From positions 3,162,001-3,226,000 of the forward strand of contig JAGUCH010000001.1 in NCBI GenBank assembly GCA_019096065.1: a stretch of 64,000 bases of DNA, given 5' to 3'. Positions 37,640 through 43,140 of this stretch are shown piece by piece (position 1 is the first letter of the stretch; the number at the start of each line of letters is the position of its first letter). This stretch comes from Paracyclopina nana. Its lineage: Eukaryota > Arthropoda > Copepoda > Cyclopoida > Cyclopettidae. The notes below the pieces were generated by a model that made no database searches, was not told where the DNA came from, and saw only the letters and a list, made by a program, of their open reading frames with translations. The translations under genes and the position numbers were made by a program.

Positions 37640-38565
37640 TTCAATGAGTCAAACATTTGGATAGTGAGAAAACTGCACCAGAAGATTGTAGTTGGGATAC
37701 GTTTACTTTGGACTGGGCTTTCTCTATTTGGGAAATATCACTATTTATTCGGGAAAGGCGATCATAGCTCCATAAATTCCAAAGCTAACGTAAATAGTAT
37801 CTAGAGAACTCATTTATGAGGAGAGATGCACGTGCCATTGCCTTTCCTGTGCTTATCCTTGTTTCTGGGCTAGCTCTAGCAAAATGAATCTCATTTTGGG
37901 GCAGAAAAAAATCCAAAACAATCGTGCACATTTTACTGAGAATGCTTGGGTAAGCCACTCGAGTACAGAACGTACTTTTGATTCTGCGTATGATGCAACA
38001 TACGTACATGTGCGTATATCAGATTATTATTAGATAGGAAAAAATCAACACAATGTGATGATAAGTCGTTCAGTGCCTTAAGCTTATCTTATTTCGGAGG
38101 TAAGGGTTTTAAATTAGAATAGTGGACTTCAAGTAAGAGCTAGCTTGTCAAAACAAAAAAATTAGCAAAATGAACACAATAGTATCGCGTGTTCTGAGCT
38201 AGGGGAAAATTCGTAAAAATGTGACAAAAACGTTTCGTTTCATTTAAGTTGATATTTGATTATTTCGGATTAGCCTGTCAAGCCTCCAGAAGATGGGGAA
38301 GACGCGGTTGATAACTCTGCTAACAACGCAAACTTCACATTTTTAGAGGAAATAGTCAATCAATCTTCTGTCTACTATTGGCATAAAAATGAAAACGTAT
38401 TGAATTGGATAATTGCGTGTTGTATATTGCTATTAGTCCAGCCCCCTCAGACGCGAGACGCATCGCGTATAAAAGACGATGAAATAGATCCAGTTTGTCC
38501 ACTAGATCAGTTCGCCTTGTGAGAGACTCATGAAAATACCCCTTCTTTGCTTCCAGTGTTGCACA
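37640..38565. promoter_or_regulatory. Shared upstream region of TMEM26 and flavohemoglobin (divergent)
   Basis: The two genes face away from each other across about 0.9 kb. At 38541-38556 a pyrimidine-rich tract ending in CAG looks like a 3' splice site, suggesting that the flavohemoglobin mRNA has a spliced 5' leader. No donor was assigned. Confidence 0.4.
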
Positions 38566-40018
38566 ATGGGAGACGCCAATCCAAAGCCCATGAGTGCGCT
38601 GACAATAAAGACTTTGAAGGCCACAGCACCTGTTGTCAAGGCAAATGGCAATCAGATCACAGAGGTTATGTATGGCATAATGATGCAGCGCTACCCCGAA
38701 GTGAGAAACTACTTCAACATGAGCCATTTTCGTAAAAATGGAGATTCCATGACAATTGCTCCTCAGGTTGGTTTAAACTTTTTTGCAATTAAAGTACTTT
38801 AAAAGTCTAAATCTTGGTTTTGTCTTATTAGCCCAAGACGTTGGCAAATGCGATTATTGCTTTTGCCGCCTACGCAGACAATCTTTCTGTACTTAACGAT
38901 GCTGTCTCCACTATGTCACACAAGCATGTCAGCTTTGACATCAAGCCAGAGCAATATTCGATTGTCGGTGAGTGCATTCTTGAAGCCATCAAAACCGTTC
39001 TAGGTGACGGAGCCTCTAATGATGTCATGACTGCATGGGCTGAGGGCTATCAATTTTTGGCTGACTTACTTATTGGTATCGAGGCCAAGATGAAAAGGAA
39101 AATGCCGACAAGAAAGGTACGCTGAATAATTTTAAGTGTTGGCAATTTTTGGGCCAGATTATGTAAATCTTAGGTGGATGGTACGGCTACAAAAACTTCA
39201 CCATCACTGAGAAAATCCCCGAATCGGAAGACATTGTATCGTTTTATATGAAGCCCTGCGATGGTGGCGAAATTGCAAAGTTTGAGCCGGGGCAGTACCT
39301 GTCCATTCGGTTCCCCAAGGGAACTTTTGATGAGTTCGACCACGACGTTGTCCGTAATTATAGTTTGTCTTCGGGGCCTGATAAGGATTACTATCGTATC
39401 AGCCTAAAAGGGAGGTCTCGAGCGACCTCGTACATCCGGATGGCCTGGTGTCATCATATTTTCACGACACCCTCACTGTTGGCTCTAACGTCGAGGTAAC
39501 TTATAATTTCGAGAAAGTCTTGTAGCATTTCATGATTTGGGTGTTATTGTTTTTAGATTGGAATGCCTTGCGGCTCATTTACGCTTGCGAGGGAAAGTAA
39601 CAAGCCAGTTGTACTGATTGCGGGTGGGGTTGGGCTCACACCAATGATAAGCATGCTTGAGTCACTTATGAGCTCAAACAATGACAGACGAGTCGTTTTC
39701 GTCCAGTGCACCAAAAGCCCTAAAACGCATGCAATGAGTGCATTAGTGGACAACCTGAGCAACTCTGAGCTACTCTCTTCTCATGCTTTCTATTCAACTC
39801 GTAGCGCTGGAACTACTCAACTGACCAACACTCAAGTCCATTATGGAAAGTTTTCAGCAGAGGACTTGGCTGCAATTGTGCCCGCTCCTCCTGTCGAAAA
39901 TGAATACTACTTTTGTGGACCGCCACCATTCCTTGGTACTATAAGAAACATTCTTGAGGAGCTCAAGGTACCAAAGAATCAAATCCATTACGAATATTTT
40001 GGTCCGACTGAGCAATGA
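38566..40018 (+). CDS. hmp: Flavohemoglobin (nitric oxide dioxygenase, Hmp-like), with two frame breaks
   Basis: Converts NO and O2 to nitrate using NAD(P)H, through globin haem and FAD. Exons: 38566-38766, 38832-39116, 39174-39495 and 39557-40018, GT-AG, about 423 codons once the two breaks are counted. The globin domain has TLKATAPVVKANG, YFNMSHF, the proximal haem histidine region HKHVSFDIKPEQY and VGECIL. The reductase has GGWYGYKNF, FEPGQYLSIRF, the FAD motif RNYSLS, the NAD motif GGVGLTPM, FCGPPPFL and the terminal EYFGP. In exon 2 (about 39090-39092) and exon 3 (about 39402-39410) the family frame continues only if one base is missing from each place; downstream residues in the shifted frame match the family well. 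Start: ATG 38566 is preferred because a likely splice acceptor ends at 38556, although an in-frame ATG exists at 38530. Either sequencing error or pseudogenisation is possible. Confidence 0.9.
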
Positions 40019-40023
40019 AATAT

Positions 40024-40041
40024 TTTATTTTTGGTAATAAA
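40024..40041. terminator. Overlapping polyadenylation signals of two convergent genes
   Basis: AATAAA on the plus strand at 40036-40041 serves the flavohemoglobin gene, 18 nt past its stop. AATAAA on the minus strand at 40024-40029 serves the small gene ending at 40068. The two 3' UTRs must overlap. Confidence 0.6.
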
Positions 40042-40067: not shown

Positions 40068-40403
40068 TTAGTTAAGAAACCTTCGGAAAACTTGTCCAAT
40101 GCCACCACTGGATGCCTCGGCATTTCCAATGGTTGGATGCCAATTGGCCTCCCATTCTTCACGAAACTGATCGCATTCTTCGTCCGACAAAGTTGTCTCG
40201 ACTGATTCATCAAAGGCCTTTCCATCTACAGTAATTTGCTTGACCACATAGGTTTTATCGCCGATTGATCGAATATGGTTCAAAATCTTCTTTTCCTTGC
40301 CATCCTCAATCACAACGGTCAGTTCTTTGCGTTCTCGGAGGACCACTCCATCAACGATGATTTCATGGTCAACGAGAACGCTTCTATTGACTTGGTCGGC
40401 CAT
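40068..40403 (-). CDS. Small MLF-like protein (111 aa), function uncertain
   Basis: Single-exon frame starting MADQVNRS, preceded by AT-rich leader sequence. I see no signal peptide or membrane segment. The pattern of a reactive strand (VVLRERKELTV), then IRSIGDKTYVV, then LSDEECDQFREEWEANW resembles the conserved block of myeloid leukemia factor proteins (R-E-R-K, I-G-D-x-x-H/Y-V-V, then D-E...F-D-E-x-W). It is shorter than MLF and the match is by eye, so the assignment is tentative. It is convergent with the flavohemoglobin (49 bp between stops) and divergent from the Dlg gene. Codon use looks genuine and there is a polyadenylation signal 39 nt past the stop. Confidence 0.6.
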   Translation of the reverse strand: MADQVNRSVLVDHEIIVDGVVLRERKELTVVIEDGKEKKILNHIRSIGDKTYVVKQITVDGKAFDESVETTLSDEECDQFREEWEANWHPTIGNAEASSGGIGQVFRRFLN

Positions 40404-40868
40404 AATTCAGTAATTTTGCTTACGAATTATTTCTGGCGGTCTTTGAGCTTGGCTGCTAATTTAACCCTACGTCAATTGACGAAATATTAAAAGGCTATCA
40501 TAAAGTAGCTTCATAGTTTTAGTGGGGGGTTGTGTGAGCTGCTTATTAAAACTTCCGCCAAAAGGCGAGGAGGGTCAACAAACAAGCAAGCTCGCTCAGC
40601 GAGGAAGAATGGAGATTGCTCGCGCCCAAACCCGCTCTTTCCTGCCTTGTCAGCCCCAACTCGGGTGAAAACAACAACAATCACTGCAAGACCGCCTTCG
40701 TCCGTCGCCGGGGAAAGCCGCGCCCTGACTGACTGACGACTGACTGCCGCGGCATTCCAGCTTGAGCAGTCGTTCTTCGGCGGTAGCGTGGCCGACTTCG
40801 ACATCGTGATCAGCAGCAGTTGCAGGCTCGACAGCAGCAGCTGCTATTTAAGTCAAAGACATGAGAAG
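40404..40868. promoter_or_regulatory. Bidirectional promoter region, small gene / Dlg
   Basis: This 465-bp stretch separates divergent start codons. It becomes clearly GC-rich from about 40550 onward and contains a short ACTGACTG-type repeat near 40730. A TTCCAG at about 40758 could be a splice acceptor, leaving open an upstream Dlg exon. No TATA box was identified. Confidence 0.4.
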
Positions 40869-43140
40869 ATGAACGTTAACGGGGAGCGGACCCTGTCGGT
40901 GCCCGACGTGGGCGGCAACCGCTCAACGGCCTCCATGGCCTCACTCCGGAGCGTCAACGGAACGGCGGCAAGGAGGCGACTGGAGGACAGACTTTTTCCC
41001 AGGGAGCCTCGTCTCGTCGAGCTGATCAAGGGCCGATCCGGTCTCGGCTTCAACATCGTTGGCGGAGAGGACGCGGAAGGAATTTTCATTTCGTTCATCT
41101 TGGCGGGATCTCCGGCGGATACGTGCGGAACGCTTCGCAGGGGTGACCAGATCTTGTCCGTCAATGACATCGACATCCGCACGGCTTCGCACGATGAGGC
41201 CGCCGCTTGCCTCAAGGGCTCCGGCCAATACGTACGCTTGTTAGTTCAGTATCGTCCCGAAGAGTACAACCGCTACGAGGCTCGGTTGCATGAAATTCAG
41301 CAAACGATGACCGGAACGCTGGTGAGGACGTCACCGAAACGGTCGTTATACGTCCGGGCCCTGTTTGACTACGACCCCGCGAGGGATGACGGGTTGCCGT
41401 CCCGTGGCCTGGGCTTTTCATATGGCGACATCTTGCACGTGACCAATGCTTCCGACGAAGAATGGTGGCAAGCGAGGAAAGTATTGCCCAATGGCGAGGA
41501 GGCTGGCCTAGGCATCATTCCGTCCAAAGTTCGGTGGGAGCGAAAGGAGCGCAAGAAGAATCGACGGCTCGTATTTCATGGAAGTCGGAGCTCAACGAGT
41601 CTGGATCGATCACTGCTGCAAAATGCCAATTCCAGGCGACATAAGGGGCAAAAAATTTCGTTCAGCCGCAAATTTCCTTTCATGAAGTCGAGAGAGCGTT
41701 TGAACAGGCTCGACGATGACGACAACGAGGACCTGAGTAGCGACCTTGCGTCGGATCCGAATAACAGGTAAATTCATGATAGGAACAGCTATAGTCGATT
41801 TGCTGAGGCTTCTTCTAATCCGATGAAAATTCTGTAATTGAAGGCCTAGAAACTTTCATTAAGTACAACACCCGCACCTTTCCACTCTCTTACGTCTGTG
41901 TGTGCGTGGTATTTTTGGATCAATCGAAAGCATTAGGCTGATGTAGAGTAAGCTATGCTGAGTGCAGCTAAGCATACTGCATGCTGTTGGAACAAAAACT
42001 CCCAGAACAAGTAGAGGCAGAAATCCGGCTTTGCATTGTATCTATCTACTTAGGTTTTCACGTGTTTTTATCGCAGTGTGCAATGCCCGTGTGTTGTATC
42101 TGCTACTGCTCTGCTCATGTTGCTGATAAGCTTATAATATGTCTGTATTGACATGCAAGTCCTAAACTCAGCTAGGGTAATTGTAGGTCATTTGAGGTAG
42201 AAGCCGCGAGCCGAATTTTGTCTCCAAAATTATCGATTCTGTCGATTTCCTCGACAACAATGTTGCGTTATCACGTTTTTATTTTCTGTGTTGCTTCAGG
42301 GAAAACTTGGTGGCCTTATTATTATAAGTCATTAGATGTGAATGTCATGCTGTAAAATATGTCGAAATCCCCCTTTGACTGGGTTTTCCTGTCATGATAT
42401 TTGCAATACCGGTTTTTCTTTGACTATCCCGTTTTGAATGACGAAAAATCACATGAATGTTGCGTCTGCATTCAATTCTGCTATATTTTTTCAGAGGCCG
42501 TGATGAAGGCAGGGTGGCATCCATTCTCACCTATGAACCTGTGCAAGAAATAGACCTGGAGTTCACCCGTCCTGTCATTATCCTTGGGCCTCTGAAAGAT
42601 CGCATAAATGACGACTTGATGCGCGAGTTTCCTGACCGCTTTGGCTCCTGTGTGCCCCACACTACTCGTGAGAGACGTGACCATGAGGTCGACGGTCGCG
42701 ATTATCACTTTGTAGCCACGGTCGAAAAGATGGAGCGGGACATTGCTAACCACCTGTTCATCGAGGCTGGTCAATACAACGATAACTTGTACGGAACCTC
42801 TGTGCAATCCGTACAAGATGTGGCGGCTCAGGGCAAACATTGCATCCTCGATGTCTCCGCGAACGCCATAAAGAGGCTGCACGTGGCCCAGCTGTATCCA
42901 ATTGCCATTTTTCTGAAGCCCAAAAGCATGGACTCCATATTGGAGATGAATAAGCGGATGACTGACGAGCAAGCCAGGAAAACGTACGAGAGGGCCTTAA
43001 AATTGGAGCAGGACTTTGGAGAGTACTTCACTGCTGTCGTTTCTGGTGACACCCCCGAAGAAATCTACGAACGAGTCAAGGATGTGATTCAAGAACAGTC
43101 CGGCGACACAATTTGGGTCCCTTCGAAAGAGAAGCTTTGA
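40869..43140 (+). CDS. dlg1: Dlg/PSD-95-type MAGUK, single-PDZ form (PDZ-SH3-GK)
   Basis: Membrane-associated scaffold for junctions and synapses. Two exons, 40869-41767 and 42495-43140, join in frame (AG|A) to 514 aa. The PDZ at about residues 36-125 has the carboxylate loop [16 protein letters not shown] and [12 protein letters not shown], the hallmark of Dlg PDZ3. Next come the SH3 ([25 protein letters not shown]), a basic hook (about residues 225-300) and a guanylate kinase-like domain with [48 protein letters not shown] and KHCILDVSA. It ends in IWVPSKEKL as Dlg does. L27 and PDZ1-2 are absent, and no such exon is visible upstream in the window. Either this is a short isoform or paralogue, or upstream exons lie beyond. 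Exon 1 is notably GC-rich and contains no introns. Confidence 0.93.
41768..42494 (+). other. Intron of the Dlg gene, 727 nt
   Basis: Single intron between the SH3/hook exon and the GK exon, donor GTAAAT and acceptor TTTTTTCAG. AT-rich, with no other feature recognised. Confidence 0.8.

Follow-up and report, generated by a model that had tools for sequence, protein, structure and literature searches.

The genome of the copepod Paracyclopina nana carries a flavohemoglobin-family gene which, in the reading we favour (probability about 0.6), was acquired laterally, stayed under selection for a long time and, in recent times, had its reading frame broken in two positions. The gene lies on the forward strand at positions 38566-40018 of the window, by which we mean the whole 64,000-nucleotide stretch of DNA analysed here, and direct reading confirmed its four exons and three short GT-AG introns. 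The coordinates, exon number and intron boundaries proposed in the earlier note were thus borne out, as was its view of a flavohemoglobin gene with spliceosomal-type introns in an animal genome. The gene is nuclear, belongs to an arthropod and is distinct from the other globin loci of the host. Judged by its sequence, the locus is a flavohemoglobin-family gene by descent; as assembled, it cannot encode a complete flavohemoglobin.

All four exons could be assigned to parts of the flavohemoglobin protein using Pfam, the NCBIfam family NF009805 (NO-inducible flavohemoprotein) and a profile of 96 relatives, from which the window sequence was excluded and which was run against the six-frame translation of the window. 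Exon 1 (38566-38766) encodes the start of the globin domain (NF009805, E = 1.9e-12 at 38566-38772; profile, 4.8e-16) and exon 2 (38832-39116) the remaining globin domain with the proximal histidine (Pfam Globin, 7.2e-10; NF009805, 9.9e-32; profile, 9.8e-36). Exon 3 (39174-39495) corresponds to the FAD-binding domain (NF009805, 6.4e-25 at 39176-39409; profile, one segment in each of two frames at 6.9e-27 and 3.8e-4; Pfam FAD_binding_6, 0.018, short of its cut-off), and exon 4 (39557-40018) to the NAD-binding domain and the stop codon (Pfam NAD_binding_1, 9.8e-11, above cut-off; NF009805, 1.3e-40; profile, 4.2e-43). NF009805 was the best family for four of the five exon pieces, covering model positions 2-55 (exon 1), 55-144 (exon 2), 150-224 (first part of exon 3) and 249-396 (exon 4), with every piece below the whole-protein cut-off, as expected for fragments; the fifth piece, 32 amino acids of exon 3, had no family match in the same search. 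The exon 1 piece extended two codons into intron 1 in the Pfam and NF009805 comparisons and in the alignment from which the frame breaks were read, and later comparisons used 38566-38766. The five profile segments occurred in the correct order, no other place in the six-frame window matched the profile (E ≤ 1), and 500 sequences resampled from the locus with a first-order Markov model gave no match either.

The residues expected of the family are retained in all three domains. The N-terminal 3-over-3 globin domain contains the proximal histidine in the invariant K98-H99 column, and the heme-pocket residues Y36, Q67, Y109 and E151, which we take to be the catalytic Tyr B10, Gln E7, Tyr G5 and Glu H23, are retained and invariant among six flavohemoglobins. 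Likewise invariant are R224, Y226 and S227 in the FAD domain, presumably the FAD-binding motif known as RxYS, and G296-V-G298, T300, P301, G393 and F420 in the NAD domain. The globin/FAD/NAD architecture with proximal histidine, as originally described, is therefore confirmed by NF009805, the profile and the invariant columns. Counting only columns with at least 90% conservation among the 96 other sequences, the copepod sequence keeps 75 of 86, compared to 72 of 86 in yeast and 78 of 88 in E. coli. Because so many conserved columns are retained, constraint probably acted on the protein for the greater part of its history, and a loss of frame, if real, would be recent.

Among solved structures, the best full-length matches were the flavohemoglobins 1cqx/3ozu, 1gvh and 4g1b. 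Bacterial Hmp proteins (NF009805; PDB 1cqx/3ozu and 1gvh; Porticoccus L026) share all three parts and their order with the copepod gene, and the match to 1cqx/3ozu spans the whole length (E = 5.6e-80) once the two breaks are read through. Compared with bacterial Hmp, the copepod gene adds three introns, two frame breaks and six to seven residues by intron 1, which the alignment with relatives places at 38732-38766, abutting this intron. Yeast Yhb1 (PDB 4g1b, E = 4.2e-62) also has the same parts, and its branch length and loss of conserved columns are similar to those of the copepod sequence, but it groups elsewhere in the tree, where it is the sole fungal sequence. Single-domain bacterial globins (Vitreoscilla 1vhb and thermoglobin 7dih, the latter matching exon 2 at E = 9.5e-22) resemble the globin part, whereas the copepod gene carries FAD and NAD parts as well. 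The host's own animal globins (L001, L002/L004, L005 and L006/L007) match Pfam Globin as the flavohemoglobin locus does, but none adjoins a NAD_binding_1 match, and in the genome only the window locus combines both. Two of these globin-domain exons, L002 and L004 (C7:1,246,971-1,247,814, reverse strand), lie about 320 bp apart and possibly form a multi-domain globin gene.

As assembled, the locus lacks the one continuous frame of about 400 residues that characterises a flavohemoglobin; its frame is disrupted at two breaks that were overlooked in the earlier note, which had implied an intact gene. The first, break (a), lies near the end of exon 2 (39089-39095), where exon 2, read in the frame of 38832, fails to join exon 3, read in that of 39176, across intron 2 and, by reading and alignment, the final codons of exon 2 match the family linker only in a second frame. 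This break falls at the column of a tyrosine present in 97% of the 96 relatives, and codon reading indicated that one missing base alone is insufficient to account for its absence. The second, break (b), lies within exon 3 (39406-39415), where the frame shifts near 39409; it is a bare frameshift, because the profile segments on its two sides, 39173-39415 and 39406-39501, share part of their DNA and yet are read in different frames. Both breaks are located at runs of four A, within about 320 bp of each other. Apart from these two frame changes, and speaking against loss, the exons are free of in-frame stop codons and the splice sites and the polyadenylation-like signal look intact.

Two ways in which the cell might circumvent the breaks were considered and rejected. 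For alternative splicing, 1784 in-frame plans of four exons were scored, with AG acceptors, donors of the GT or GC type, fixed ranges for both and a minimum intron of 35 nt, and even the best of them did not restore the conserved protein: it reached 436 bits compared to 475 for reading through the breaks, used two GC donors and left the FAD domain with about 24 residues out of frame. Each of the top 12 plans had at least one GC donor, and the best GT-only plan among those listed reached 388 bits. A GT donor at 39076 repairs the frame at break (a) but loses the invariant Glu151. Programmed frameshifting was rejected by reading, since a slippery heptamer in the required register is absent from both breaks.

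Whether the breaks belong to the animal or to its assembly bears directly on a possible but unlikely alternative, namely a working and expressed flavohemoglobin in which both are sequencing or assembly slips and which guards the copepod against NO from its own synthases or from grazed algae. The gene is otherwise pristine, with its splice sites, invariant residues and 75 of 86 conserved columns in place, and the genome has three NO synthase loci. Both breaks fall at A runs, and long homopolymers look scarce: G/C runs in the sampled host sequence, a count that took in overlapping host loci, numbered 20 at length 6, none at length 7 and one at length 8. Together, the seeming scarcity of long homopolymers and the position of the breaks at A runs might be a sign that the assembly contains homopolymer errors.

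Against slips, no bare frameshift was found in 13 HSP70-family loci of the same genome, amounting to about 22.7 kb of matched coding sequence (16,545 bp from ten loci and 6,153 bp from three single open reading frames), so that two within about 320 bp would be a local oddity. These loci were picked by family match, and only matched segments were scored, the stretches between segments being long in L129 and L132; L123 was omitted because it overlaps L126, and a weak opposite-strand match in L131 went uncounted. The ten loci contained 24 junctions between matched segments with intron-like gaps of 32-337 nt, mostly 40-100 nt, while the remaining three loci are single open frames. At the 95% upper-bound slip rate of a second control, 19,035 bp of open reading frames with 59 A/T runs of at least five, which is biased because most were chosen for openness, the chance of two or more slips in the flavohemoglobin exons was 0.017. 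The loss at break (a) of the tyrosine kept in 97% of relatives likewise counts against a working gene. We consider the breaks to be probably true lesions of the animal's DNA and not assembly errors, and a recently lost gene more likely than a working one. A broken allele might also segregate beside intact ones, the assembly happening to show the broken one; recent loss agrees with the otherwise well-kept sequence in this case too, but the assembly has a single copy, and we regard this alternative as quite improbable. A DNA search of the animal's own genome for a second flavohemoglobin copy returned one match, the locus itself; in the assembly, this one DNA copy has a disrupted frame and has kept its introns, as an unprocessed pseudogene would.

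The introns and the host neighbours on either side show that the gene is integrated in the host genome. Introns 1 (38767-38831, 65 bp, 25% GC), 2 (39117-39173, 57 bp, 33% GC) and 3 (39496-39556, 61 bp, 30% GC) are all of the GT-AG type and AT-rich, with 25-33% GC compared to 47% in the exons of the locus. GC3 of the gene is 0.496, within the span of 0.464-0.683 of seven window genes. Intron size and AT-richness are host-like as well, the junction gaps of the HSP70 genes being mostly 40-100 nt. The flanking genes include, as first noted, a TMEM26 gene and a PDZ-SH3/guanylate-kinase (MAGUK) gene; the latter, DLG-like by our reading, occupies 40869-43137 on the forward strand, and its first long exon has a PDZ and an SH3 domain. 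A pyrimidine-rich stretch ending in CAG and resembling a 3' splice acceptor precedes the start codon (38540-38556) and may mark a 5'-UTR intron or a trans-splice acceptor, and a putative polyadenylation signal, AATAAA, lies 17 nt past the stop codon (40036-40041), both on the forward strand. Close to the gene and convergent with it is a 111-residue reading frame (40068-40406, reverse strand), for which a Pfam search returned no match at E ≤ 1.

Bacterial contamination or a chimeric join would agree with the closest relatives among the collections searched being bacterial, but runs against the three AT-rich GT-AG introns, the host-like GC3, the animal genes on both sides, the location on a 17.8-Mb contig (in a genome of 91.95 Mb in 10 contigs) and a best bacterial identity of just 46-47%. 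The size of the contig, the introns, the neighbouring genes and the base composition led us to reject contamination, and a chimeric assembly is unlikely because of the host-like introns and GC3 and the 17.8-Mb contig; we give such an artefact only the slightest chance. In the genome as a whole, Chitin_bind_4, a cuticle domain of arthropods, was matched 80 times. The Lin12-Notch repeat was matched 38 times (150 of 437 candidates scored), with the matches spread over many contigs and partly in tandem (for example at C2:13,603,874-13,608,876, L107), and a search of the assembly for COX1 gave no match. A study of Oithona nana describes a Lin12-Notch burst of 75 genes, against at most six in four other copepods, and calls it unique in metazoans (PMC8301441).

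A lateral origin is the natural reading of these sequence data, in agreement with the horizontal acquisition suggested in the earlier note, for which proximity to bacterial flavohemoglobins speaks; the acquisition itself is not proved, and the sequence, on its long branch, takes no firm position in the tree. Among 84,980 species genomes of bacteria and archaea that were scanned, there were at least 513 confirmed relatives, the best 80 of which were kept. The best identity to bacterial flavohemoglobins was 46-47% among the matches listed (45 of 87 rows), and none of the listed bacterial loci (best 80 of at least 513) is close. In the phylum of the relative L082, titled Flectobacillus (Bacteroidota), 8 of 395 genomes match at E ≤ 1e-60, L082's own included; L110, the same gene as L082, was excluded from the tree. 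In the resulting tree of 97 sequences, with bacterial flavohemoglobins, one fungus and no animals sampled, the copepod sequence branches next to an alphaproteobacterial set, though weakly supported (91/67), and falls within none of the well-supported sets.

Vertical descent from an early eukaryotic flavohemoglobin, lost in most other animals, is a highly improbable alternative. The long branch of the copepod sequence (1.95, against 1.97 for yeast) would suit any old origin, whereas passages of a 2020 review and a 2006 survey place flavohemoglobins in bacteria, in fungi and in certain microbial or algal eukaryotes but not in animals (PMC6950321, PMC1457004). In addition, the AU test disfavoured a grouping of the copepod sequence with yeast alone (p = 0.019), a weak rejection of a yeast-like origin, but not a grouping with yeast and its Bacillota neighbour Niallia (p = 0.093). 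In plasmids, relatives of exon 4 occurred in 752 records and relatives of exon 2 in 337, all at less than 60% identity. A viral source was rejected after two scans of viral contigs (viral_contigs), of which the first gave no relative and the second a single one at 36% identity. The full flavohemoglobin encoded on an 8.9-kb IMG/VR contig (L106) clusters with that of Paracoccus L080 (98/96), and this contig may be bacterial DNA labelled viral.

Taking the recently lost, laterally acquired gene as our preferred reading, a flavohemoglobin (NO dioxygenase) gene would have entered a crustacean ancestor, most likely from a bacterium, either directly or through a microbial eukaryote, the latter passage being possible. 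It would then have gained three short spliceosomal introns and a host-like base composition, and purifying selection would have held it for long as a cytosolic enzyme converting NO and O2 to nitrate, with NAD(P)H supplying electrons to the heme by way of FAD. The sequenced animals would have lost the reading frame recently at two places, so that a complete enzyme is presumably no longer encoded. Turnover of NO and O2 to nitrate is the known role of the flavohemoglobin family, and an intact copepod enzyme would have had this activity in the past; a present role in NO detoxification, as earlier expected, is not supported given the two frame breaks. NO dioxygenase activity of flavohaemoglobins is also stated in the 2020 review (PMC6950321).

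In the host genome, three NO synthase loci (L014, L015 and L016) were located by their oxygenase exons at C5:1,689,224-1,690,460 (forward strand), C5:6,700,686-6,701,883 (reverse) and C7:1,508,928-1,510,142 (reverse), each with a NAD-binding match within about 3 kb, and the reductase open reading frame of the first (C5:1.689 Mb) contains flavodoxin, FAD and NAD domains. The enzyme might have served the animal by removing its own NO or that of grazed algae. That the copepod makes a working, spliced flavohemoglobin of microbial origin beside these three loci, with the breaks being assembly slips or a broken allele next to intact ones, is a tentative and somewhat doubtful prospect.

The enzyme family is known, as is lateral transfer into arthropods, but the host is unexpected. 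The 2020 review confines flavohaemoglobins to microbes, asks why higher organisms are without them and hopes for microbe-only drug targets (PMC6950321), and the 2006 survey names fungi, diplomonads and mycetozoans together with an unpublished red-algal flavohemoglobin (PMC1457004). A 2026 study on transfer-derived gene fusions in arthropods does not contain 'flavohemo' in its main text. In the open-licence literature, no report of an animal flavohemoglobin was found among the matches listed, at the level of titles and abstract starts, and none of a copepod flavohemoglobin or flavohemoprotein. Animal sequence databases may nevertheless include copepod entries annotated as 'flavohemoprotein'. 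Against the review's microbes-only view, even a decayed animal copy is notable, and a working copepod flavohemoglobin, if true, would contradict it. An intron-bearing copy in a copepod would demonstrate that a flavohaemoglobin was acquired by an animal lineage, which either uses it or has been losing it, and with three NO synthase loci in the same genome, both gain and loss of NO removal would be directly open to study in a common marine grazer.
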